DNA of 33,021 nucleotides from IMG/VR virus record IMGVR_UViG_3300021379_002056, positions 1 to 33,021 of that record; one strand, given 5' to 3'. Below the pieces are notes generated by a model. That model worked only from the letters and a program-made list of their open reading frames with translations, made no database searches and was not told the DNA's origin. This DNA comes from a virus. Positions 10,466 through 33,021 of this stretch are shown piece by piece. Made by a program: the position numbers and the translations under genes. Every line of letters begins with the position of its first letter. Position 1 is the first letter of the stretch.

Positions 10466-11206
10466 ATGAGTAATGCAAAGCTACTGCTCCACTGCGGGGC
10501 AGAACAAACCACGCGAGAGGACGTCTGGAACGTCACCACGCCCGAGCCGACCCGCACCCACTACCCTCTGCCTCACCGGGATCTTGTCGGGGAAGTCGAG
10601 GACATGCTGACTGGCGCCGGCTTCGAGATTGGCGACCAGAGACACGCCTTGTCGCATGAAGGCGCCCGATACTTCGGCACCTTCGCCGTCTCGCTGCCCG
10701 ATGCCCCCTCGAAGGACTATTCGTGGGTCGTCGGCCTCCGAAACAGCCACGACAAGTCGCTGCCGGCCGGATTGGTCGCCGGCACTCGTGTCTTCGTCTG
10801 CGACAACCTCGCCTTCACCGGCGAGATCAAGATCAGCAGGAAGCATACCCGCTTCGCTGCCCGGGATCTCAGTCACATGACTGCTCGAGCGGTTGGGCAG
10901 CTTGGTGAGCGGTTCCACAGGCTCGATCGGCAGATCGAAGCGTATCAGGAAGCTGAGATCAACGACAGGACGGCGCATGACGTCATCATTCGCGCCATTG
11001 ACTGCCGTGCGGTCAACCCGACTGCGGTCAAGGGAGTGTTGAAGGAGTGGCGCCAGCCGAGTCATGAGGACTTTGAGCCTCGCACTGCCTGGAGCCTGTT
11101 CAACGCCTTCACCGAGAGGATGAAGGGCGGCAACCCAAACACCACGCTGCGGAGGACACAAGCTCTTCACGGTCTCTTCGATGGGGTTGTGGGACTGGCT
11201 AACTGA
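10466..11206 (+). CDS. DUF932 family protein
   Basis: A 246-residue protein of the DUF932 type found in phages and plasmids. The diagnostic stretch is WVVGLRNSHDKSLPAGLVAG, then FVCDNLAF and the following SRKHT (about residues 90-132): 'GLRNSxDKSxxxxxxxGxxVFVCDN'. Upstream is the GxEExxHALSxxGARxFGTF-like part (QRHALSHEGARYFGTFAV). The C-terminal half is helical. The molecular function is not established to my knowledge. It is transcribed from the palindrome-overlapping promoter and ends 1 bp before the serine recombinase start. Confidence 0.8.
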   Translation: MSNAKLLLHCGAEQTTREDVWNVTTPEPTRTHYPLPHRDLVGEVEDMLTGAGFEIGDQRHALSHEGARYFGTFAVSLPDAPSKDYSWVVGLRNSHDKSLPAGLVAGTRVFVCDNLAFTGEIKISRKHTRFAARDLSHMTARAVGQLGERFHRLDRQIEAYQEAEINDRTAHDVIIRAIDCRAVNPTAVKGVLKEWRQPSHEDFEPRTAWSLFNAFTERMKGGNPNTTLRRTQALHGLFDGVVGLAN

Positions 11207-11207
11207 C

Positions 11208-11843
11208 ATGAAGACCAGAACACCTGTGGCGATCCTTGTCAGGGTCTCCACCAAGAAGCAGGAAACTGACCGTCAGATTTCAGAACTGCGCCTTGTGGCT
11301 ACCTCCCGTGACTGGGAGGTGGTCGAGGTCGTGGAAGAGGCTGGCGTGTCGGGGTCATCGGACGAGCGTCCCGGTCTAGAGCGCATCCTTGAGTTGGCGC
11401 AGGCGAAGAAGATCAAGAAGGTGATGGTGCATGAGGTATCGAGGGTGGCGCGGAAGAACAGCATTGCGCACCATTTTCTCGAAGACCTGCACGATGCTGG
11501 GGTCTCGCTTTACTGGCACTCCCAGGGGATCGAGACACTGCTTGCCAACGGCAAGGTCTCGCCTGCTGCTGCGATCATGTTCGCCCTGCTCTCCGAGATG
11601 GCGAGATACGAGAACGAAGAGCGTCGAGAACGCATCTTGAGCGGCCTCGAGGAAGCACGCCGGAAGGGTGTGAAGTTGGGTCGTCCGAAGGGGTCTGGTT
11701 TGGCTCCCGGCGACTTGGCAAAGAAGCATCCGAAGGTGGTCAAATACCTTGAGTCTGGCGATCACAGTTTGCGTGAGATCGGCCGGCTTGCTGGTGTTAG
11801 CGCGATGACAGTTAAGAGGGTGAAGGAGGACATAGCAGCATGA
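11208..11843 (+). CDS. small serine recombinase (resolvase/invertase type)
   Basis: A 211-residue serine recombinase. The catalytic domain begins VAILVRVSTKKQETDRQISEL with the nucleophile Ser in VRVST, then GVSGSSDERPGLERIL, VHEVSRVARKN with the conserved S-R, and LLSEMARYENEERRERILSGL leading to the long E helix. LGRPKGS precedes a C-terminal helix-turn-helix (SLREIGRLAGVSAMTVKRV). Small resolvases and invertases of this length resolve dimers or flip DNA. I start at the ATG at 11208. Its substrate is not evident. A second recombinase type beside a tyrosine integrase is unusual for a phage this size. Confidence 0.9.
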   Translation: MKTRTPVAILVRVSTKKQETDRQISELRLVATSRDWEVVEVVEEAGVSGSSDERPGLERILELAQAKKIKKVMVHEVSRVARKNSIAHHFLEDLHDAGVSLYWHSQGIETLLANGKVSPAAAIMFALLSEMARYENEERRERILSGLEEARRKGVKLGRPKGSGLAPGDLAKKHPKVVKYLESGDHSLREIGRLAGVSAMTVKRVKEDIAA

Positions 11844-13524: not shown

Positions 13525-14928
13525 TCATAGCGCCTCCTCGATCACCGTCTCTTTGCGTTCCAGAAGGTCAAGCATCCCCTCATCCAGAGAGTCCTCGAGG
13601 ATGAACCTGTGGATGGTCACTGGTTTTGTTTGCCCGATTCGCCAGATTCGATCTTCGGTCTGTTGCATATTCCCGGGGGACCAGTCGAGTTCTGCGAGTA
13701 TGAGGTGGCGTGCTGCAGTGAGTGTGACTCCGCTCGAGGCAGTGCCGATGGTTGCGAGGAAGATGAATGCGCCACCTGTTTGAAACCTGTCGACGGCTTC
13801 CTGGCGTTGTTTCGGGTTGGTTTGTTGACTGATCGAGGCGACTCGGAACTTCCTTCCCTTGAAATGGGCGTAGAGGGTGCGGTAGATCTGCTGGTGGATG
13901 CAATAGACCACGACTGGTTCGCCCTTTTTGCGCAATTGCTCGACTAGAGCGATGACTCTTGGCAGCTTCGCTTCAGCGGCGAGGATCCTTGCCGGGTGTA
14001 AGTTCCGGTTAGCCTCGTTTTGCAGCCTGTTTGCGTCCGAAAGAAGTGGTCTCTTGTGGACGATCATCTTGCATTTTGCGATCTGCCGGTAAAGGTCATT
14101 GAGGTCTCGCTTGTAACGATCTGCTGTTTCTTTGTATTCTGAAATTTTTTGTCTCGTCTCGTCGTTTGGAGTAATACGGATGGTTTCTTGCGTCTTTGGC
14201 GGCAGGTTAGTGAGGCATTTTGCTTTAGTGCGTCGAATTAGGCATGTTGCGTAAAGTTTGTCCTGCAATTCGTCGAGGTTTGTGGCGCCTTCCGCGATCC
14301 ATTCGCCATTCCACCATCGGCCCTTGCAGTATCGCTTGGTAAAATCGATGAATGACCCGAATGCTCCCGGCCGGATTGCATTGATAGCGGTAAAGATCTC
14401 GACTGGTCGGTTGAGGATTGGGGTGCCAGTGAGAAAATACCGGACTCGAGCCTCGAGCGAGAGGGCTATTTGAGTTCTTTGGGCCTCGTTGTTCTTTATG
14501 TAGTGCGACTCATCGAAGACGATGACCGGGAAATACGTTTGCACGAGCTTCCTGAGTTTCTCGTAGTTGATGAAGAGAGGTAGTGGTAGTTCTGGCAAGG
14601 CCCAGGTGGTCCATTCTCTTTTCCAATTTTCGACCAATGATGCCGGCGAAACGATCAGGACTGGTTCCGGTGGATTGAGAGTGTTGATGGCAGCTATTGT
14701 GACAGCTGTTTTCCCGAGACCCATTTCGTCGGCGTTGAGGGAGCCTCCGTGAAAGGCGTCTTCGACCATGAGTTGCGCTGCGGCGACTTGGAATGGCAGC
14801 AAAGTGGGTCCACTCTGGTTGGTTTTGATCTCGAGTCCTTGTTTTGGCTCGATCCCCTTGCCTCGATCGGCTCTTCCTTTGCGTTCTGCGATGACTGGCG
14901 AGTGAAGCGAGAGGGTAGTTTGCTGCAT
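13525..14928 (-). CDS. SNF2/SMARCAL-type helicase
   Basis: A 467-residue superfamily-2 ATPase. Motifs: Q-like LLPFQVAAAQ (43-52), Walker A DEMGLGKT (67-74), DESH box (139-142, FDESHYIKN), motif III LTGTPILNRP (166-175), then the C-terminal half with VVVYCIHQQIYRTL, LATIGTASSGVTLT and QTEDRIWRIGQTKPV, the SNF2 'Q..DR.hRiGQ' motif. Such proteins move on double-stranded DNA, remodelling or annealing it. It lacks accessory domains and is near minimal length. I start at the ATG at 14928; an upstream TTG at 14952 lies inside the operator palindrome. It is inverted relative to its neighbours and convergent with 13208. Confidence 0.9.
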   Translation of the reverse strand: MQQTTLSLHSPVIAERKGRADRGKGIEPKQGLEIKTNQSGPTLLPFQVAAAQLMVEDAFHGGSLNADEMGLGKTAVTIAAINTLNPPEPVLIVSPASLVENWKREWTTWALPELPLPLFINYEKLRKLVQTYFPVIVFDESHYIKNNEAQRTQIALSLEARVRYFLTGTPILNRPVEIFTAINAIRPGAFGSFIDFTKRYCKGRWWNGEWIAEGATNLDELQDKLYATCLIRRTKAKCLTNLPPKTQETIRITPNDETRQKISEYKETADRYKRDLNDLYRQIAKCKMIVHKRPLLSDANRLQNEANRNLHPARILAAEAKLPRVIALVEQLRKKGEPVVVYCIHQQIYRTLYAHFKGRKFRVASISQQTNPKQRQEAVDRFQTGGAFIFLATIGTASSGVTLTAARHLILAELDWSPGNMQQTEDRIWRIGQTKPVTIHRFILEDSLDEGMLDLLERKETVIEEAL

Positions 14929-14938
14929 TTCGCACTGT

Positions 14939-15003
14939 GTTGCGCATCGCAATTTCCGCGACTGGAAAATTGAGCAGTTAGGGGCTAACTGGGCGATTTT
15001 TTT
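14939..15003. promoter_or_regulatory. divergent control region with operator copy 5
   Basis: This gap separates the SNF2 gene (-) from the portal (+). GTTGCG-CAT-CGCAAT (14939-14953) is operator copy 5. TTTCC (14953-14957) and GGAAA (14964-14968) form a second inverted repeat, and CAGTTAG-GGG-CTAACTG (14975-14991) a third, followed by GGCGA and a run of nine T. The last may act as a terminator or an mRNA-leader hairpin. I cannot assign a clear -10 on either strand. Confidence 0.5.
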
Positions 15004-19980: not shown

Positions 19981-21507
19981 ATGGCTGGAACATACAATGC
20001 CAATGCAAATGTCATGCAGCTTGCCGATGCTTTGTCGTCCGCTCCGGACGCAAAGGGCAGACTGTATGCCAAGATGCTCGAAGATGGGGCCGCTCAATAC
20101 GATGACTTCACAATGTTTGAAGGCTCGATCGGCCGGAGTGGCAGTACGCCGAATGCTGTTTTTCTTCGGAAAAACGACTTCCGCAAAGCTGCCGGAGACA
20201 AGATGACGTTCACTGTTCAAAGTGACGTTGCAGGACCGGGTGTCCGTGGTGAGCAAGAGCTTACCGGAAATACCTCGACGGTGGAATACACCACCTACGA
20301 CTGCATCGTGGACTACTGGAGGGATGCGTTTGAATTGAATCAGAAAAAGACCAAATTCATGGCAGCAGGCGGCGACGTCCATTCTCACGCAATTAAAAAG
20401 TTGCGGAAGAAACTGGGTCGCCAGCGCAGCTACGACATGAAGCTGTCTCTGATTCGCAAAGCGAACGGCAACATCATTCGTCCGAACAATCGCAAATCAC
20501 GCGACGAGTTGACCTCAATCGATACTCTGCAGCCGGGATTCCTCCCGATCGCAAAGCCTCAATTGCAGCGTCTTGGAGCGAAGCCTATATCGATTCAGAA
20601 GAACAAGCATGGATCGCCGGTGCATACCTTTGTGGTTTATGCTTCGGACGTCGCAATGGAGGGTATCCGCAACAGCACATCCTTCCAAAATGCTTTGCTG
20701 AACGCACAGTCGCGCAGCGACCAGAACCCTACCTTTAGTGGTCGACTGGTTGACTGGCAGGGTCTTGCGCTCTTCGAGCATCTGACTGTCGATCCCGATT
20801 GGGATGATAAGTTGAGCGACCCGACTGCACCTCGCGCACTACTGAAAGTCGCATTCTCCGCGGACTCCGCGGCCGGCGACACCAAGCTGAAGTCGAGTGC
20901 TACCAACACGTTCCATCGTTACTACGAGTGGTTCCCCGGTTATGACTACCAGTGGTATGAGGGGCAACCGGCCGCGCCGGATACCGCTCGTTACTATGCG
21001 TGGATCATCACTCCGGACGGTGAGGTTGGCTTCGTCAGCTACGTCGGCACCGGAAACGACGGCAACGAGATCCTTCTCGACCAGATCCTGTCCCCCGCGG
21101 GTGCAGGAACCTCCGGCAAAGGGCTCGCCGTTGTGGGTAACATCGACGCGACCGGTGACGGTTGGGGTGGTGGAACTCCTGGGCCGGGTGGTGTTGGCGG
21201 TGGAAACACTGATGCCAACTTCGTCTACACCGATGACTTCGCAGCGGATTCCTATATCATCCCTGCGAATGCCAACGGTGTTCCGGTCGGACATACGTTC
21301 ATGTTTGGTCGTGGTGCAGCCGTGAGGGGCTACGGTTCGTCCGAAGTCTACATCACGCAAGATCGTGATTATGGCTTCGTGAAAGGCGCCGGCTACCAGT
21401 GCATCTTCGGTCAGGCACCTTGTGTCAGGACTGACGGCAAAACCCACAACTACGGGTTGCTCGAACACGCAATCCAACATCAGGGCCTTGAGGTTCCTGC
21501 GCTGTAA
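19981..21507 (+). CDS. major capsid protein (DUF4043/N4-gp56-like)
   Basis: A 508-residue HK97-fold candidate. The N-terminal part (MTFTVQSDVAGPGVRGEQEL, YTTYDCIVDYWRDAFELNQKKT) follows the layout 'Gd.vtf.....l.g.gv.Ge..L.G.....' of DUF4043/N4 gp56-like capsids. The core (TFVVYASDVAMEGIRN, GRLVDWQGLALFEHL) and a C-terminal GHTFMFGRGAAVRGYG segment also fit. A Gly-rich stretch at about 392-412 (GGGTPGPGGVGGGN) may be a flexible loop or a site of insertion. A good ribosome site (CAGGAGA) lies 9 bp before the ATG, and a strong terminator follows, as expected for the most abundant late product. Confidence 0.8.
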   Translation: MAGTYNANANVMQLADALSSAPDAKGRLYAKMLEDGAAQYDDFTMFEGSIGRSGSTPNAVFLRKNDFRKAAGDKMTFTVQSDVAGPGVRGEQELTGNTSTVEYTTYDCIVDYWRDAFELNQKKTKFMAAGGDVHSHAIKKLRKKLGRQRSYDMKLSLIRKANGNIIRPNNRKSRDELTSIDTLQPGFLPIAKPQLQRLGAKPISIQKNKHGSPVHTFVVYASDVAMEGIRNSTSFQNALLNAQSRSDQNPTFSGRLVDWQGLALFEHLTVDPDWDDKLSDPTAPRALLKVAFSADSAAGDTKLKSSATNTFHRYYEWFPGYDYQWYEGQPAAPDTARYYAWIITPDGEVGFVSYVGTGNDGNEILLDQILSPAGAGTSGKGLAVVGNIDATGDGWGGGTPGPGGVGGGNTDANFVYTDDFAADSYIIPANANGVPVGHTFMFGRGAAVRGYGSSEVYITQDRDYGFVKGAGYQCIFGQAPCVRTDGKTHNYGLLEHAIQHQGLEVPAL

Positions 21508-23044: not shown

Positions 23045-26000
23045 ATGGCTCAAAGCTACGCAGACATCGCCCAGGCGTTACGGGACCGGCCGGCGATTAA
23101 CTACTCGTCCTCGAAGACCCCGATTGCGCAGGTATGGTATGAGACGGCTACCGTCCCTGCGGATTGTTTTGGTAGTTGCCCTTTGTTGGTCATCACCGAA
23201 GACCGCACCGGCATCGACGTCAGTCCTGATGTAGCCGGCAACCAGAACGGGTTGTATTTTGAGCTAAATAATGGCACTGACACATTCCGCATCTATCTCG
23301 ACGTAGACCCGTGGGGGGATGTGGCGCCGGTTGAGCCTCCAGCATTCGGCGTGGTTCAAATCAAGCAGAATGCAACCGCGGCGGAAGTCGCTGCCGCGGT
23401 TGCGGAGCAAGTGAAGTGCTTCTGTGATGAAAATGATTTTTTCGAGCAGGTCAAGGTATTTGCTAAAGGTGATCAGATTTTCATTGATGCGAAAAATGGG
23501 ACGACACTTTTCTCTGACGCCGGCACGACGGGTTACACAACCTCTGTCACCTCTGTCACCGTCTGCAATCCCAACATCCCCGAGGAGTTTCGGATCGGCT
23601 CCACTCACCCGTGTTGCCCATACCTTGAACTGATCGATGCGTGGATGACGGGGGGTGACGATCATCACGTAAACTGGATCAAAGTCTACGAGGTAGACTA
23701 CGGCAAACTCGAGGATGCCTGTGATGATTTCTCGACCGATGATCTGTTGGGGGATGTCACCGAAACTGATTTCCCGTATTTTGATGATTCACGCCGGATC
23801 ACCGAGCAGATCGACATTGTGAATCCGGAGTGCTACGCCCGGAAGCCGCAATGCTCTCCTCATCCCTGCTACCCAAATGCATTGCTGGTGAGCGAAAAGC
23901 TCTCGAAGGACGGCGCCAAAGCATCGGTGGTGAGGGTCTACCATGACGTAGCCGATCTCGCGCAGCAGGCAAAATTCGGATTCGAGGTGACCTACGAGTG
24001 CCAGGACAGTGGCAATCAATATCCAATAGTCACATGGACGTATGACTCGAAGCTCGAGGATTACGCACCTCCGCAATGCGGAAGTGCAATCCCAATCAAT
24101 CAGGGTGGCGATCTTGATTTTACCAGCCTGGGGCTTGTCTTGATCGAGCCTCCGACTTTCGAAGCGGAAAACACCTGCTTTGGTCGTGTTACGGCGAAAT
24201 ACGGTAGGCTCCCCGGCTACCTTAAAGCCTCTGAGCAGACCGATGACGATTATGGCACCATCTACGAATATAATCAGGTGGTGCCAGCTTCGACTCCGCT
24301 GCCTGCAATTGGTAGCACCTATGAGGGCAATCCCGTCCTCAACGCGGAAATTGTCGAGGAGCATTGCTGTGTCAAAAAACTGCGTGTTATTACTGGCGAG
24401 GATGCTGAGTGCATCAAGGTAAGCATTCTTCCCGATCAGGCGTGGTGCAGTTTGACTCGTTACGAGTGGAAAAATGCTGACGGCACATATGTCTTGCCCG
24501 AAACGGGTGACACCTATTCAGGGCGCATTGTTCTCGACGCAACCTCCCAGCAAACTAAATGCGCCGGAGAGTTGCAAATCCGAATTGACACTGTTTTGGT
24601 CCCATCTCCTGTGGCGACTACTATCAGTGATGATGCCACGTTTTGCGAAATAACTACCGAAACATGGGTTGACCTTACGGAAAATGTAACACTTCCGGCA
24701 CTAGGTGACTCCTACGGGAGTGGTTTGTATGTTGTGGGCGCAAGTTCCTCTCCCCGAAAATGTGATAAATTTTCCACCATAGAAATACAAACAAGCGAGC
24801 TTCCCTCGCCGCTTCAGACATCTACTAAAGAGGACAATGATTTTTGCGAAGTAACGACAGTTAGTTATGTCGACTTAGCCAGCAATGTAGCGAGCATCGA
24901 TTTAGGTGATGATTATGCGCCTATTCCGGGAACTAAAGTCATTGCGTTTAATAGTGAACCCTACAAATGCGCAGAATTGCAAAGAGTCACAATAACGGTA
25001 GCACCTTTCCCTGCCCCTGTAATTCGTACGGAGATTGAAGACAATGATTTTTGTGAAGCATACCGAAATACGCAAATACTAACCGCTGACGAATTAGTCG
25101 CATCACCCCTTCCAGCAATTGGTGATGTTTATGGGAGCGAATGGGTCATCGGGGTGGACTCTTCTCCTTATCTTTGCGACTCCTTAGTAAGGACTACCGT
25201 CATCTCAGCCACGGTGCCTTCGGTGGTAAAAACAAGCACTCGCAAAGACAATGATTTTTGCGAGGTATCTGTTGTCTCTTTTATCGACTTAGTGGCTACT
25301 GGCGTAGGGCATGCGGTTGGTGACGTTGCGTTGGGTGGGACTATCATCGAAGTGTCCGTCGATCCTTACAAGTGCGACACTTTACAAAGAGTCACCTATA
25401 CAGTTGCTCCGACATTCCCGGCCCCTGTCATCCGCACAGAAATTGAAGACAACGATTTTTGTGAAGCATACCGGAATACTCAGGTGGTAACTGCTGCTGA
25501 ATTAGCAACGACTCCCCTTCCAGAAATTGGTGATGTTTATGGAAGCGAGTGGGTCATCGGAGTGGACTCAGACCCATATCTCTGTGATTCGTTAATTAGA
25601 ACTACCATCATCTCAGCCACGGTGCCTTCGGTAGTTAAGGAATCCGCTCGACCGGATCGAGACCTGTGTGAGGTAACCTCCCATAGCTTTGTCGATCTCA
25701 CTGCAACTGCATTAAGCTATGCCGTGGGAGACTCTGCTTACGCGGGGACCGTCATTGCCGTTAGGGTAGACCCCTACAAGTGCGACACCTTGCGTCGTGT
25801 CACCTACGAAGTCGCCACAATTCCCTCACCAGAAATAGAAACGGAAACTGAAGATGCGAATTTTTGCTCAAAAACGACATATACTAAGGTCGTTAAGGGA
25901 GCCGCATTAAGTTTGCCTGCTATTGGTGGCTCCTATCAAGGGGGGACCGTCATTGCCTTGGACTCTGCTCCATACTTGTGTGACCAGCTTTTGAAGCAAA

Positions 26001-27055
26001 GCATTACGGTTGCCACGGTTCCTTCTCCCGAGGTGGTGCTGGAGCAGGACGATAAGGAGTTTTGCTCGACGACCGTCTACGAACGCATCCAGCCAGACAC
26101 ATACAATGCCCCGGCTATTGGGGACACCTACAACGCCGACACCGTTGTTGCAGTGAGTGAGTCGGCTTATCTTTGTGACCAGCTAAAGCGGGTGCGCATT
26201 GTGACGGCGAATTTGACGAATAGTCAGCGCACAACCAAGGAACTGCATCCCGAACTATGCTTCATCAATCGGACCACTTGGGTCGGCGCAGACGGGTATG
26301 CCTTGCCTGATACCACCTACAATAACGAGCAGGTCTACAGGGCCTCGAGCGAGGCATATCATTGCTCGACACTAAAGCGTTACTCTATTGAGACGGTGCC
26401 GGTCCCCACGACTGTCTTCAAGGAAATCCAGATCGATGACGCTATTCTAGGGGCTACTGAGACTCACCATCAGTTCTACGACGGCAACTCTCCTGTTTTG
26501 CCAGCAGTCGGAGACACCTACGATTCCGAAGAAGTGGTTGGGGTTCGCATGGATCAAGCGGCGTGCAAAATGAAAAAGGTGACTATCATTACATCGAACA
26601 TCCCAGAAGATTACGACCACTTTGAGACGGTAGCTTACACATTCCCACCGATTTATCGCTATCGCGTAGAGTTGCCACTGACGGTAAAAGCAAGGGTGAG
26701 CTACTCGTTCACAACAAACCCCGCTATAGTAGCTCTCCTGAGTCCACAGAGTTTCATTTCCAATATCCAGTCGATCAATAACGCTGTGGACGTAAACGGT
26801 GTTCCGCTGCGCTCGCAGATTGCTCAACCCTGGAGAGATTTGGGTAACACCCTGCACGACCAGATTAACCTTTTTAACCCCGGCACTTCTCGCGCAATTC
26901 CTGACCTTGCTGTCGTGGTTTCGGCTTCGGTGCCATCGGCAACGACTTACCTTGGTTGGATTTCTGGTGGCACTGAGTTCGTCTTGTCAGACTCAATTGA
27001 AAAATGGAAGGGTAATATTTGGGTACGTAAAACCGTTCGCATTGTCGCACACTGA
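23045..27055 (+). CDS. giant cysteine-repeat structural protein, possible tail spike/fibre
   Basis: A 1336-residue protein. Residues about 1-450 are non-repetitive and beta-rich, with cysteine pairs (CFGSCPL, HPCCPYLEL). From about residue 460 to 1190 there are roughly eleven modules of 62-70 residues. Each typically has one Cys near the start (DNDFCE), a Gly-turn (AIGDVYGSEWVI), a second Cys near the end (PYLCDSL or PYKCDTL) and a closing strand ending VPSP or FPAP. Modules D to G are a two-module unit duplicated in tandem. The last 140 residues are unlike the repeats. It lies after the adaptor, where receptor-binding or tail proteins sit. I would call it a virion structural or host-binding protein; no known family recognised. 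Confidence 0.6.
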   Translation: MAQSYADIAQALRDRPAINYSSSKTPIAQVWYETATVPADCFGSCPLLVITEDRTGIDVSPDVAGNQNGLYFELNNGTDTFRIYLDVDPWGDVAPVEPPAFGVVQIKQNATAAEVAAAVAEQVKCFCDENDFFEQVKVFAKGDQIFIDAKNGTTLFSDAGTTGYTTSVTSVTVCNPNIPEEFRIGSTHPCCPYLELIDAWMTGGDDHHVNWIKVYEVDYGKLEDACDDFSTDDLLGDVTETDFPYFDDSRRITEQIDIVNPECYARKPQCSPHPCYPNALLVSEKLSKDGAKASVVRVYHDVADLAQQAKFGFEVTYECQDSGNQYPIVTWTYDSKLEDYAPPQCGSAIPINQGGDLDFTSLGLVLIEPPTFEAENTCFGRVTAKYGRLPGYLKASEQTDDDYGTIYEYNQVVPASTPLPAIGSTYEGNPVLNAEIVEEHCCVKKLRVITGEDAECIKVSILPDQAWCSLTRYEWKNADGTYVLPETGDTYSGRIVLDATSQQTKCAGELQIRIDTVLVPSPVATTISDDATFCEITTETWVDLTENVTLPALGDSYGSGLYVVGASSSPRKCDKFSTIEIQTSELPSPLQTSTKEDNDFCEVTTVSYVDLASNVASIDLGDDYAPIPGTKVIAFNSEPYKCAELQRVTITVAPFPAPVIRTEIEDNDFCEAYRNTQILTADELVASPLPAIGDVYGSEWVIGVDSSPYLCDSLVRTTVISATVPSVVKTSTRKDNDFCEVSVVSFIDLVATGVGHAVGDVALGGTIIEVSVDPYKCDTLQRVTYTVAPTFPAPVIRTEIEDNDFCEAYRNTQVVTAAELATTPLPEIGDVYGSEWVIGVDSDPYLCDSLIRTTIISATVPSVVKESARPDRDLCEVTSHSFVDLTATALSYAVGDSAYAGTVIAVRVDPYKCDTLRRVTYEVATIPSPEIETETEDANFCSKTTYTKVVKGAALSLPAIGGSYQGGTVIALDSAPYLCDQLLKQSITVATVPSPEVVLEQDDKEFCSTTVYERIQPDTYNAPAIGDTYNADTVVAVSESAYLCDQLKRVRIVTANLTNSQRTTKELHPELCFINRTTWVGADGYALPDTTYNNEQVYRASSEAYHCSTLKRYSIETVPVPTTVFKEIQIDDAILGATETHHQFYDGNSPVLPAVGDTYDSEEVVGVRMDQAACKMKKVTIITSNIPEDYDHFETVAYTFPPIYRYRVELPLTVKARVSYSFTTNPAIVALLSPQSFISNIQSINNAVDVNGVPLRSQIAQPWRDLGNTLHDQINLFNPGTSRAIPDLAVVVSASVPSATTYLGWISGGTEFVLSDSIEKWKGNIWVRKTVRIVAH
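24422..26610 (+). repeat. array of about eleven 62-70-residue modules
   Basis: At protein level the modules share C near the FCE position, LPAIGDxY, and CDxL followed by a hydrophobic strand. The closest pair is D/E (25013-25420) versus F/G (25421-25825), with near-identical DNA: both contain ATTGAAGACAAYGATTTTTG and TGGTGATGTTTATGG. Period there is 408 bp, two modules. Confidence 0.85.
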
Positions 27056-28199: not shown

Positions 28200-29171
28200 A
28201 TGATAGTTATATCCGGATGCCCAAGAAGCGGCACAAGTCTCATGTCCTCAATCCTCCGCAAAGTAGTCGGGGAGGACAAATTTCATGGTGTCAAGTTCCC
28301 TCAAGAGGAGCGGCTTGAGCAGATGAAGAGAAACATGCGCCCGATTGATTTTTACATCAAAGACAAGGCCGAGCCTGGGTGGAACGACGTAAAATACAAA
28401 GACCTCAACCCGAATGGTTTTTGGGAATGCCCGTGGACGGTTCGAGGATGTAGTCGATACGACAGTCGCCCGACAGAACTAGAGGGTGCGAAGATCGTCT
28501 CGCAGGGTTTGGCAAACTCCAATCCCGAGGCTATTTCCCGCGTGCTTTACATGGTCCGCGATCCGCACTCAGTTGCCAAAAGCCAAGAGCGACTGAAGCG
28601 AAAATTTGATAATGCCGGGACGGTCCACTCGCCCGAGATGTTTATAAAAGTCCACCAGCAAGCGGCACGATGGATAGTAGGTCACAAGCCTGACGTCAGG
28701 GTGGTTAATTTTGATGATCTTGTAGCGGACCCTGCCAGTGTCCTCTCTGATTTAGACGCATGGGTTGAAGGAGTCGGATTTCCGGGCAAATTTATGGATT
28801 CGGTGGGCGAGATTGAGCCTCGGCTGCGTCGGAGTGCAGACCATGAGACTCCGCAACAAAGTGCCGAGGATGACGCATGGGAAGACGCCGAGAGCATACA
28901 TGCCTCGCTGCTCGAGGGGGACTTTGAGTCAGTGGCGAGCCACAAAAGAACTAAACTTGATCCGCTTCGTAATTTTTACTGCGTCAGGCTCAATCAACCG
29001 ATGCCTGCTGCTGCCTGTAAACACTGCCTCTCTGACAAGGACACCCGAAACAACTTCAAAAAAACTGCTGAACAACGGCAAATTGATTGGCGTAAAGAAC
29101 CTTGCACATATCAGTGCAAGGTCGACAACATGAAGATCGAAGAAAGCGTAGCCTTAAACCACTGGAGATAA
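28200..29171 (+). CDS. sulfotransferase-like P-loop protein
   Basis: A 323-residue protein with sulfotransferase motifs. ISGCPRSGTSLM (4-15) is the 5'-phosphosulfate loop binding the donor PAPS. YMVRDPHSVAKSQERL with Arg120 and Ser128 is the 3'-phosphate site (RDPxxxxxS). VVNFDDLVADPASVLSDLDAWV (168-189) matches the 'YEDLvxdPxxvlxxixxFl' helix pair. Such enzymes move sulfate from PAPS to hydroxyl or amino groups of sugars or lipids. The C-terminal 75 residues add CKHC and C-x-x-x-C, perhaps a metal site. Acceptor unknown. It lies at the end of the late structural run, so it may modify a virion glycan or the host surface. Confidence 0.8.
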   Translation: MIVISGCPRSGTSLMSSILRKVVGEDKFHGVKFPQEERLEQMKRNMRPIDFYIKDKAEPGWNDVKYKDLNPNGFWECPWTVRGCSRYDSRPTELEGAKIVSQGLANSNPEAISRVLYMVRDPHSVAKSQERLKRKFDNAGTVHSPEMFIKVHQQAARWIVGHKPDVRVVNFDDLVADPASVLSDLDAWVEGVGFPGKFMDSVGEIEPRLRRSADHETPQQSAEDDAWEDAESIHASLLEGDFESVASHKRTKLDPLRNFYCVRLNQPMPAAACKHCLSDKDTRNNFKKTAEQRQIDWRKEPCTYQCKVDNMKIEESVALNHWR

Positions 29172-29449
29172 TGGAACACACACAAATAGTCAGACACCTG
29201 CAAGCCACCCTAGCTCCCGCAATGGTATCAAAGTTGCGGCGAGATCCAGCAGAGTTGAATGAGTTTATAGACGGTCAGATCGAATCGATACGGCAGTCGG
29301 CAGCAAACAGGTCTGCTACCTTAAAAGAGCCTCTTGAGGACTCACTTGCAGCAACCTTGAGCGACCTGGAGCCACTTCCTTACAAGGTCAATGACACCGA
29401 TAGGTCCGATTTGGACTCGCATCTCAAAGGGTATTACTACGGAGAATGA
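29171..29449 (+). CDS. hypothetical protein, 92 residues
   Basis: Starts at TAATG overlap with the sulfotransferase stop. An acidic helical protein (VRHLQATLAPAMVSKLRRDP, LNEFIDGQIESIRQ) with a Tyr-rich end (GYYYGE). No family recognised. The TGA at 29447-29449 abuts the stop codon of the convergent giant gene with zero spacing. Confidence 0.5.
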   Translation: MEHTQIVRHLQATLAPAMVSKLRRDPAELNEFIDGQIESIRQSAANRSATLKEPLEDSLAATLSDLEPLPYKVNDTDRSDLDSHLKGYYYGE

Positions 29450-32400
29450 TTATTGGGCCTGCCATTGTCGCAGTAGCTCAGCTTGGTGCTTCTTGATCAT
29501 CACTCCTCGATACACCGACCTAGCCTTTTTCAGCGTTTTGTCGATGCGCTCAATGCCGGCCGCGGTCGGGTTAGTGTAATCCCAGTCATCTCCAAGCACC
29601 TGTGCCGCGGCTTGTCCGATCAGATTAGCATATTCGGTGTTATACTCTTCTGGCGTCAGGTCGATCTTAGCCGTCTTGCCGTTTCTGGTGACGGTGATAG
29701 TCCTCGAGGGTGCGGTAGGCGCCCACTTCTCGGCTGGATTGATCCTGTTCCATGCTGCGATGTAAGCATCAACCGGATTTACCTCTGCCTCCAATTCGGT
29801 GTGGATCGGCATGAGTATGCGGTAAAGGGCATCAGTGAGGGGTCCGCCGATCGCTTTGCCATCGTAACGCATGGTGGGATTGCCCCATACGTCAGTCTTT
29901 ATCGGACCAACCTGTGGCACGATGCCTCGAGCCGTGCGGACGAACAACTCCTCGAGCGTTCCCATCCCGGCCGGTAATTTTGAGTCTCGAATAAACGGAT
30001 CAACCTGCCGGATTGGTTGACGAATCAGGTTGGGAACTGCTGCTGATGTGATGTTTGCTGCCCACCTGCTGCCCCAATAGTCCGGATCCTCTACGGCATT
30101 CATGATGTCCGAGATCCCCTGGAGGTAAGATTTTTCTTTTACGCCGGCCGCGGTGTGGGCGACAAATCGGCTAAACGCATCCCATCCATTCTCGCTTTCA
30201 TCAATCGAGCGGAGCAGGTCAATCGATGTGGCAAACCATGTTGCGAATGGGTCCAGCCTCCGGTAGCTGAATATCTTGTTGCCGAATCGGATCGACATTG
30301 GAGGCATCACCCGGTAAGCAAGATCCCGCTCGCTGCGTTTTGTGCCTTTGTAGGGCATCGAGCCTGTGATGCTTGGGCGCCCCCACTCGTCGTCTTCGTC
30401 GCTCTTGAGCAGTTCGCTCATGGCGAAATAGATCATCCAGCCGAACGTCTGATTTGTGATGTCTTTCAAGGCCCGAGCTTGATTATAGATGTCTCCGGCG
30501 CCGACTCGTTCGCCGGTCTTGGTTTTTGGAGCCTTCGCTTGTGCTGCGACTTCACGGGACATGTCGCTTATGGTTTCGAGCAGTCCAAGCGGAGTCATTC
30601 GCAGTCCGCTCTTCAAGATGTTCGTAGGAGTGTCCACAAATGGAATAAAGAAGGCACTGCCTTTTGCCAAGCTGCCGTATTTTCCTGCCTTGATGTCCTT
30701 GAGCCACATTGCTGCCGGGTCTATTACCCGATCGAAGGTTCTGTTCTCCGATCCGATCTGCGTCTGGAAGGTGAGTTCATGCGCCTTGTCCATGGCGGCA
30801 GACCATGCGGGTGACCCGTGCTTGAGATAATGGTCAATTCTGCCCTGATAGGCTTCGCCTGCCGATTCTGCTTGTGCAATCGACTCTGCTTGTTGCCGAG
30901 AGAGTTGCTTATTTGCCGCTCGAGCTTCTTGCAGCAGTTGCTCGGTTCGTAGTGCTTTTACATTTCCTGCCTTTTGCTCTTTTGCCACAATGCGATGCGC
31001 TTGCGCTGCTGCCTCGAGCGTTCCCCAAAAGCTCTTGATGAATTCGTCCGCTGCAGTCATCCCGCGGAAGCTGATCGACCGCATGATCTTGCCGAACTTG
31101 CCGCGCATTGCCGGCGCGAACTTGTCAGCTTTCATCCCATTGAATCCCATCTGCGTTACTCTGCCCATCACCTCTGTCTCGAGGACGCGATCCTCGAGTT
31201 GCCAACTACGCACGGCATTTCTCGCTGCCCTTTGCAGGGCAGGCTTTGTTTGCTTCCACATGTGCAAGGCTTCGGAAAGAGTGGGACCGTCTTTCACTCC
31301 CAGGCCGAGGAAATTCAGAGAGTCATTCAAGCCTCCCTCGAATGCCTTGCGCAGTGTCATGTCGGTGAGTCCAAACATGACGCCAGATCCGATGTTGACT
31401 GCTTGCGTCTGGAATCCAGAGAGAATGCTCGCTTTCCAGTATTCGTGAACGACGTCGAATGCGGTGCCTCGAGCTTGCAGGAACTCGTCCATGATGCGCT
31501 TGACGGCGAGCGGGTCATTGAGGTCAAGTTGCCCTTCCTCGCGTGGGAACCTGCTCGCGTATGGCAATACCTTGTCCTCTTCGGCTTCCGGTTGCTTGTC
31601 TTGCTTCTTCTGCTTCCTGCGCTTCCTCTTTCTCTTAGGGGCTTTGCCCCGGGAATCAATCTCATCAAGGGAAGGCAAGCCGATCGACGTTGCGTAGAAA
31701 AACTCGTCACCCTTTGCACTGGCGGCAGAGAGTGCAGCTTCCTCGAATTTCTTCGCTGCGGTTTGACCGGCGTTATGGACTGCGGCGAGAAATGCTTTGT
31801 AGCGAGTTTTGACGTCCGCCTCCGATAAACCAGTCACTCGAGCCGCAACTTCCCATGTGGATCCGCTGCGGAGAACTCCGATGATCTCCTTAGTTCTGGG
31901 ATCCGCTTTCTTGATCTCTTCCTGCGCATGTTGCGGCAACGGTTGCATCGCTTGCTGCTTCTTGCGGTAATCTGCGAGGATCTGGTCGACGTCAATCTGC
32001 CGGTCCTTGAGCGTTTGCTTGATGCCGTCGATGCGCTTGACCCATTCGCGCATGATTGCCTCCCGCTCCCCTGCGTTTTTCGCTTTCTTGAGGCGCCGGC
32101 GTGTTCGCGGGTCTGGCAGGAACATCGCCTCACCGATATGTTGTGCGTGACGTTCCCCGGGAGACATGTTGGCGTCTCGCCGTATTGCCAATGCCCTGGC
32201 ATCCTCCGTTCCGAGTTCACGGTATCCGAGCGCAAGTCCAGCTAGTTCCATGCGGTCCTCGAAGGAGTTTGTTTCGCCTGCCGTAATTTTGCGTCCTAGC
32301 TCACGTTTGGAAGCTGCCACCATGAGCATCTTTAAGTATTGTTCCGCTTTTGCCTCCCCGATGACTCCCTTCAATGCGGTCGGGATGTCTGCGACCAGCA

Positions 32401-33021
32401 TTCCGCCATTGCGCACGTAGTCTTTGACCAGTTGCTTTGTCCCTGCCTGATCGAGCTTGAACATCTGGTCTGCTGCAGTTTGCACTTCGGCAAAGGTCAC
32501 CTTGGACGGCGCACCTTCGTCGTTCCGGATCTGGTCCATCATCACCATCGGCTCGACTGCGCCACCCGATAAGTCTGGTCTCCCTCCTCCTTTGTAGACC
32601 CTCCTGCCGTCGGGAAGGGTTGCCCGAGGCACTTTCATTTCGTTTGCTGCTGCTAACGTGTTGGCGCGAAGGCGGATTCTGCCGGAGCGGACGATACCCT
32701 GCACCGCGGACTCACTGATTCCTTCCTCCCGGGCTACCGTCTCGATCTTCGCTCCCTCGATGATCCTCGAGAATACTCTAGCGAATTGTGGGGTCATCTG
32801 CTCAAGGGTAGCCTGCAGGGCGTTGGTTCCTGCTTCCGGAGGCGTGGCGAATGTCTTCCTCGAGAGTGCCGCGACCGCGAGTTCTGGTTGAGTAAATTGC
32901 GGTTGGATGTCGACCTCACGCTTGTCGTAGTAGATTTGATCAACCGAGGTCTCCATTAGCATGTCGAAAGACGAGATCGGAATGAGTTCCTCGTCCATCT
33001 CTAGGAAACGATACAGCGATT
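29450..33021 (-). CDS. giant polyvalent / internal virion protein, open at window edge
   Basis: At least 1182 residues from the ATG at 32996-32998. The frame stays open to the window edge and that ATG lacks a clear ribosome site, so it may continue. Features (numbered from that Met): a helix-turn-helix-like part at about 80-110 (IIEGAKIETVAREEGISESAV), a second at 370-402 (TWEVAARVTGLSEADV), a Lys/Arg patch at 454-468, then YWKASILSGFQTQAVNIGSG (520-539), matching the 'LSGpxTxxxNixgN' core I recall from large phage polyvalent proteins, then long helical and mixed regions. Large late proteins of this type are ejected with DNA into the host; that role is inference. It is inverted relative to the other late genes. 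Confidence 0.7.
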   Translation of the reverse strand, partial: SLYRFLEMDEELIPISSFDMLMETSVDQIYYDKREVDIQPQFTQPELAVAALSRKTFATPPEAGTNALQATLEQMTPQFARVFSRIIEGAKIETVAREEGISESAVQGIVRSGRIRLRANTLAAANEMKVPRATLPDGRRVYKGGGRPDLSGGAVEPMVMMDQIRNDEGAPSKVTFAEVQTAADQMFKLDQAGTKQLVKDYVRNGGMLVADIPTALKGVIGEAKAEQYLKMLMVAASKRELGRKITAGETNSFEDRMELAGLALGYRELGTEDARALAIRRDANMSPGERHAQHIGEAMFLPDPRTRRRLKKAKNAGEREAIMREWVKRIDGIKQTLKDRQIDVDQILADYRKKQQAMQPLPQHAQEEIKKADPRTKEIIGVLRSGSTWEVAARVTGLSEADVKTRYKAFLAAVHNAGQTAAKKFEEAALSAASAKGDEFFYATSIGLPSLDEIDSRGKAPKRKRKRRKQKKQDKQPEAEEDKVLPYASRFPREEGQLDLNDPLAVKRIMDEFLQARGTAFDVVHEYWKASILSGFQTQAVNIGSGVMFGLTDMTLRKAFEGGLNDSLNFLGLGVKDGPTLSEALHMWKQTKPALQRAARNAVRSWQLEDRVLETEVMGRVTQMGFNGMKADKFAPAMRGKFGKIMRSISFRGMTAADEFIKSFWGTLEAAAQAHRIVAKEQKAGNVKALRTEQLLQEARAANKQLSRQQAESIAQAESAGEAYQGRIDHYLKHGSPAWSAAMDKAHELTFQTQIGSENRTFDRVIDPAAMWLKDIKAGKYGSLAKGSAFFIPFVDTPTNILKSGLRMTPLGLLETISDMSREVAAQAKAPKTKTGERVGAGDIYNQARALKDITNQTFGWMIYFAMSELLKSDEDDEWGRPSITGSMPYKGTKRSERDLAYRVMPPMSIRFGNKIFSYRRLDPFATWFATSIDLLRSIDESENGWDAFSRFVAHTAAGVKEKSYLQGISDIMNAVEDPDYWGSRWAANITSAAVPNLIRQPIRQVDPFIRDSKLPAGMGTLEELFVRTARGIVPQVGPIKTDVWGNPTMRYDGKAIGGPLTDALYRILMPIHTELEAEVNPVDAYIAAWNRINPAEKWAPTAPSRTITVTRNGKTAKIDLTPEEYNTEYANLIGQAAAQVLGDDWDYTNPTAAGIERIDKTLKKARSVYRGVMIKKHQAELLRQWQAQ

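Follow-up and report, generated by a model that had tools for sequence, protein, structure and literature searches.

The window analysed here is the whole of a 33,021-base virus record from IMG/VR (IMGVR_UViG_3300021379_002056), classed as linear, a class that often denotes a fragment. At its end lies a minus-strand frame (29450-33019) that stays open for 1,189 residues up to the edge of the contig, where the gene itself is cut; the ATG at 32998 is merely the first Met inside the frame. An earlier note on this DNA, made from the letters alone, had read the frame as a giant polyvalent protein with two sigma-factor-like helix-turn-helix (HTH) segments. Our analysis identifies a C-terminal core homologous to phage internal virion proteins, preceded by a duplicated HTH fold resembling region 4 of sigma factors, and raises the possibility that such proteins carry a transcription module into the cell.

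The giant gene and its C-terminal core

The features of the frame are listed below; frame residue numbers are those of the earlier note plus 7.

29450-33019, minus strand: gene of the predicted giant polyvalent ejection protein, visible C-terminal part (1,189 codons and stop), 5' end lost
32666-32809, minus strand: helix-turn-helix 1 (HTH1), sigma region 4-like (frame residues 71-118)
31985-32596, minus strand: conserved helical middle domain with GRPDL and GTExAR...RRD motifs (frame residues 142-345)
31766-31918, minus strand: helix-turn-helix 2 (HTH2), sigma region 4-like (frame residues 368-418)
31589-31642, minus strand: Lys/Arg-rich patch in a variable linker (frame residues 460-477)
29507-31549, minus strand: ejection core, homologous to Autographiviridae internal virion protein D (frame residues 491-1171)
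31394-31429, minus strand: SILSGFQTQAVN, the 'LSG..T...N' motif of the earlier note, its conservation taken from the core alignment

The core is 37-42% identical to that of nine relatives. PHROG 6651, 'internal virion protein', matches it at frame residues 791-996 (E 3.1e-12), and tblastn found proteins of the roseophages CRP-227 and CRP-114 (E 2e-10 and 1e-9; 24-25% identity over 43-45% of the query), one of them annotated as internal virion protein D. The 'LSG..T...N' motif, which had been picked out as a polyvalent core, is indeed conserved, with L43, G45, T48, V51 and N52 invariant in 10/10 rows. LPD38 (PF18857), considered as an identity for the core, was matched in none of ten records, and the control genomes were also silent. 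A PDB sequence search using the window protein gave no match.

A first scan of viral contigs using the whole window protein gave no matches. A profile of the core and three phage homologues led to 80 loci, ten of which (L005-L014) are 35-40% identical in the best segment. Most of the ten have very long frames: 6,457 amino acids in G001, 3,698 in G002, 4,000 in G005 (L117, the provirus of Verrucomicrobium sp. BvORR106), 6,098 in G010 and, read across a 127-base terminal repeat, 6,551 in G009. They reach at least 4,574 amino acids in G006 and at least 3,559 in G007, and those of G003, G004 and G008 are cut by their own contig ends. Relatives with a complete gene thus span 3,698-6,551 amino acids and carry polyvalent domains, which supports the description of the protein as giant and polyvalent. 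In alignment the 1,189 window residues correspond to the C-terminal part of the relatives, whose frames continue upstream, so the supposed N-terminus is internal; the HTH segments that the earlier note had placed there are usually preceded by several thousand residues in relatives. An exact-match scan to lengthen the window contig found no match.

Pfam scans of six relatives (G001, G002, G005, G006, G009 and G010, the last four in part) revealed a cargo of ART-PolyVal, Kinase-PolyVal, ddrB-ParB, Zeta_toxin, SNF2/Helicase_C, adenine methylase, RadC, InPase and MuF_C domains, with a sub-threshold match to RelA_SpoT. The window piece itself displays the HTH module and the ejection core only, and any upstream cargo of its own protein would lie off the contig. 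The RadC domain (48.1 bits, cutoff 22.1) is in the phage polyvalent protein of L099 (G010), at residues 1268-1323 of its second piece.

The gene lies in a late-gene setting, as portal and major head protein genes occur in the same window, which also encodes a DnaB-like helicase and a RecT-like protein. Of the 11 relatives showing both genes, ten (G001, G002, G003, G005, G009, G010, L113, L114, L115 and L116) have the portal gene 0-2.4 kb downstream of the giant gene and in the same orientation; G006 is the only relative with the giant gene on the opposite strand, like the window. The earlier remark that the gene runs against the late region therefore holds for the window and G006 and fails for the ten others. 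Opposite orientation is a lineage detail on this evidence, and was dropped as a functional clue. The stop-to-stop junction with zero spacing is as described: the plus-strand neighbour stops at 29449 and the minus-strand stop begins at 29450. A terminator or promoter pattern was looked for at this junction and none was found.

In the window a separate SNF2/Helicase_C gene (13525-14952, minus strand) sits directly upstream of the portal gene, where relatives place the giant gene, some with an SNF2 part of its own. A DNA invertase-type recombinase (11181-11843, plus strand) shares 58% identity with a recombinase encoded near the giant gene in L161.

Two region 4-like folds and a whole sigma factor in sister proteins

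HTH1 and HTH2 flank the conserved helical middle domain, for which a Pfam search gave no family. Using profiles of ten rows, both were found in 11/11 clade members showing the region, the window counted; G004 starts inside the core, so that the region with the HTHs is not visible, and was left out of this count. Module identity to the window among clade members is 30-38%. The protein of L115, from an Acidobacteriales metagenome-assembled genome (MAG) absent from profile building, gave independent E-values (i-E) of 2e-22 and 4e-24 for the two HTHs. Neither fold was detected by profile search in L111 and L161.

In the domain search proposed in the earlier note, the whole window protein matches the sigma region 4 profile Sigma70_r4_2 only below its cutoff (19 bits, E 0.0011, cutoff 25.7). 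The window module row scores 22.5 bits against the same cutoff, and 5/9 module rows match at E up to 1 (best 2.6e-5). HTH1 and HTH2 are a duplication: hhalign scored the pair at 94% (E 1.4e-7), and of 16 windows tested across the module, only the three with HTH2 at their centre reached 44-93%, against no more than 1.6% for the remaining 13. The recognition helix of HTH1 has a net charge of +1 to +3 in 10/10 rows and an almost constant AV.NI core. That of HTH2 varies from -2 to +2, which implies that HTH2 may not bind DNA, and conserved aromatic residues are found in this helix. The Lys/Arg patch noted earlier is present, with up to 11 Lys or Arg per 15 residues, and it falls in the variable linker, where the maximum among nine relatives is 6-10.

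AlphaFold2 on the single sequence of 1,182 residues was unusable, with a predicted local distance difference test score (pLDDT) of 38. With a nine-row alignment the mean pLDDT rose to 72 and three-helix folds were obtained at both HTH sites, which was the structural test that the earlier note had named. VIA-align placed the HTH1 model closest to 2h27, sigma-E region 4 on -35 DNA (Z 10.1, 68 residues, root-mean-square deviation 2.1), and the HTH2 model closest to 3vfz, SigD region 4 (Z 9.2, 60 residues, deviation 1.3). Sigma factors make up the majority of the 50 VIA-align rows, and the remainder are LuxR-type, ArdK and KorA folds. Foldseek gave a best E of 0.23, with 2h27 at E 2.1 and a target TM of 0.78. 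In a PDB search with the module alignment the best row was a 'cap repeat' protein, 8vd6, matched via short HTH2-like repeats, and the others were weak. As modelled, the window protein has the region 4 fold of the Sigma-70 family, a statement of fold only. The sigma-like segments seen in the sequence are thus upheld by their retention and by these top structural matches. A chance HTH pattern was considered and dropped, since the segments are conserved, fold, and are alike to a true region 4.

A whole sigma factor occupies the corresponding slot in two relatives, L113 (G797) and L114 (G798). Both match Sigma70_r2 (39.0 and 29.6 bits, Pfam cutoff 24). Region 4 is matched by Sigma70_r4 in L114 (35.1 bits, cutoff 24.1) and by Sigma70_r4_2 below cutoff in L113 (15.9 bits, cutoff 25.7). 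The order in each is Sigma70_r2, region 4, the same middle domain and the ejection core, within single frames of 3,846 and 6,131 amino acids, and the sigma segment of L113 matches the PDB structures of WhiG (best E 7e-10), FliA and SigA. HTH1 of the window clade aligns with region 4 of L113/L114 without gaps (96%, E 3e-9). When 62 windows along the L113/L114 C-terminal alignment were scanned, the best scores of HTH1 fell on region 4 (86-96%), followed by the site of HTH2 (60-71%), with no more than 7% elsewhere; the top three windows overlap region 4 and the following three overlap HTH2. In the same scan HTH2 scored 80% at its own place and next, at 51%, on region 4. In a tree built from 22 cores, the 11 HTH1 rows fall into a single group (100/98), and its sister group of six includes L113 and L114. 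The sigma is present in these two and not in L112 nearby, so the sigma part appears to come and go, with either a loss of region 2 in the window clade or its gain in the sister clade.

Embedded sigma factors were sought more widely. A tblastn search with the sigma-to-middle stretch of L114 against 50,697 phage records gave no match, and when the embedded sigma was used to scan viral contigs, only the records of L113 and L114 themselves matched. In five further genomes or records every listed Sigma70_r2 match lies in a frame shorter than 1,000 amino acids, and those matches point to no embedded sigma there. The contig of L116 (1-4851), from a Verrucomicrobiales MAG, starts inside a sub-threshold sigma region 4-like HTH fragment and continues with LPD3, a GerE-like HTH and the ejection core.

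The module is rare in the two bacterial phyla searched. Matches over more than 200 of its 384 positions come from 3/387 genomes in the phylum to which Verrucomicrobium sp. BvORR106 belongs (the provirus of that strain counted) and from 1/396 in the phylum that includes the Acidobacteriales MAG, the one being this MAG. Any match at E 1e-3 or better occurs in 20/387 and 12/396 genomes, respectively; the shorter matches, located at the HTH ends, are probably ordinary HTH proteins. The major head protein of the window (19981-21507, plus strand) is 62% identical to one in the BvORR106 provirus, which makes Verrucomicrobiota a reasonable guess as hosts of the window phage. The late region also holds a sulfotransferase-like gene (28200-29171, plus strand; Sulfotransfer_3 34.1 bits, cutoff 27). 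The window further encodes a 1,336-amino-acid protein (23045-27055, plus strand) with internal repeats (261 nucleotides at 25007 and 25415, 77%) and almost no family matches.

A proposed role and the alternatives

Judged from sequence, the giant protein is very probably packed in the head and injected with the DNA. We tentatively favour the view that the window gene is the C-terminal end of a virion-packaged ejection protein carrying a transcription module (HTH1, helical domain, HTH2), in which HTH1 would serve as a minimal sigma after entry. The last ~680 residues, the ejection core, would place the protein in the head near the portal and send it into the cell along with the DNA. Upstream of the core, the two region 4-like domains around the helical domain would form the transcription module. 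After entry HTH1 could bind a -35-like element on the incoming phage DNA and/or the beta-flap of the host RNA polymerase, and this binding would favour the first transcription from the phage genome, while enzyme domains further upstream would disarm the host. The position of HTH1, in the slot where two sister-clade proteins hold a whole sigma, points to a virus that supplies a switch of its own for the host transcription machinery. The reading that best fits the window is a sigma module consisting of region 4 alone that would enter with the DNA; its most likely task would be steering host RNA polymerase or anchoring the protein to DNA. We are slightly more hesitant about the general proposal that a podovirus-like phage family packs a sigma factor, or its region 4-only derivative, in a giant multi-enzyme protein that is injected together with the genome; host RNA polymerase would in this way be captured on phage promoters as the DNA enters.

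Several results weigh against a role as a sigma. The Pfam scores of the window's region 4 remain below the curated cutoff, and in the structural comparisons the Foldseek E-values are weak and the strong Z-scores come solely from VIA-align. Region 2 is the main anchor of a sigma factor on core polymerase, and Sigma70_r2 was matched in 0/10 window-clade records (the visible part of the window and nine others). A full sigma is rare, with Sigma70_r2 in 2/52 virus records searched, a selection from the loci, both times inside the giant frame. L112, the closest relative of L113, has HTH2 (i-E 1.7e-7) and no sigma by Pfam, and the HTH2 recognition helix is not consistently basic.

The less probable but substantial alternative is that both folds are a DNA tether, holding phage DNA in the head or at the ejection channel with no part in transcription, sigma being a mere source of the fold. 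Duplicated folds flanking one domain would suit a clamp, the basic HTH1 helices in all ten rows fit DNA binding, and the polymerase anchor, region 2, is missing from the window clade. Rare double-strand DNA-binding folds are also listed for polyvalent proteins in the text of Iyer et al. 2017 (PMC5512222). A tether would have no need of the whole sigma factor that two sister proteins retain in this slot, and the variable charge of the HTH2 helices fits it poorly. Host shut-off seems unlikely to us; here the region 4-like folds would turn host transcription off, either by binding the beta-flap or by competing with the host sigma, much as other small phage proteins target region 4 or the flap. 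A region 4 without region 2 suits a competitor more than an initiator, the adjacent ART-PolyVal and Kinase-PolyVal domains of relatives suit an attack on host machinery, and T4 gp33 and AsiA, as described in PMC7824862, are HTH proteins acting on polymerase or sigma; L113 and L114, with a complete sigma that includes region 2, point instead to initiation in those two. We think it more improbable still that the HTH folds are structural relics which have lost DNA and polymerase binding and now serve as folded spacers, unfolding and refolding during ejection. The conserved aromatics and varying charge of the HTH2 helix would agree with this, as would the lack of both folds in L111 and L161; retention of both in every clade member showing the region, at such low module identity, and the nearly constant AV.NI core of HTH1 speak against it.

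To our knowledge, the start of transcription and the drawing-in of DNA are mostly unexplained in phages without their own virion polymerase. If the sigma reading holds, a sigma module tied to an ejection core would answer this directly for the phage group concerned, and the role of polyvalent proteins would widen from disarming the host to directing host RNA polymerase. The fixed module of HTH, helical domain, HTH and ejection core would also serve as a recognition mark for such giant proteins, even in contig fragments.

Comparison with known systems

One of the nearest known systems is the T7 gp16-like internal virion protein D of Autographiviridae CRP-227 and CRP-114, which is homologous to the ejection core and shares its LSG...N and YxRxDP motifs. 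Those proteins have ~1,300 amino acids, with no HTH module by profile search and no polyvalent cargo annotated. With the polyvalent proteins described by Iyer et al. 2017 (PMC5512222), such as DarB and DdrB of phage P1, the window family shares a very long multidomain protein near late genes, and the ART, kinase, ddrB-ParB, methylase-SNF2, RelA/SpoT, InPase and MuF domains of its relatives are of the kinds treated in that text. It differs in having, beside the ejection core, either two copies of a sigma region 4 fold or an entire sigma factor; Iyer et al. list rare HTH domains, and the word 'sigma' is absent from their main text. Their account also limits RadC to polyvalent proteins of conjugative elements, whereas here it occurs in a phage protein (G010). 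An ejected or virion-carried sigma module was not found in the literature searched, which took in few subscription papers, no bioRxiv and no supplements.

A precedent is set by the N4-type virion RNA polymerase, presented in PMC12633501 as a giant podoviral protein of ~3,500 amino acids that is ejected and brings a transcription function in with the DNA. What N4 ejects is a polymerase; in the window family it would be a sigma-like factor, which would rely on the polymerase of the host. No RNA polymerase domain is among the Pfam matches of the relatives, with no separate search made for N4-type motifs; PF00940 was matched in 0/10, and the control was silent too. The minimal sigma factors and gp33 of jumbo phages, as set out in PMC7824862, have a single region 4-like HTH that is proposed to bind promoter and beta-flap. 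They are described as stand-alone phage-encoded factors, whereas the HTHs of the window are part of a giant protein that is predicted to be ejected with the DNA.

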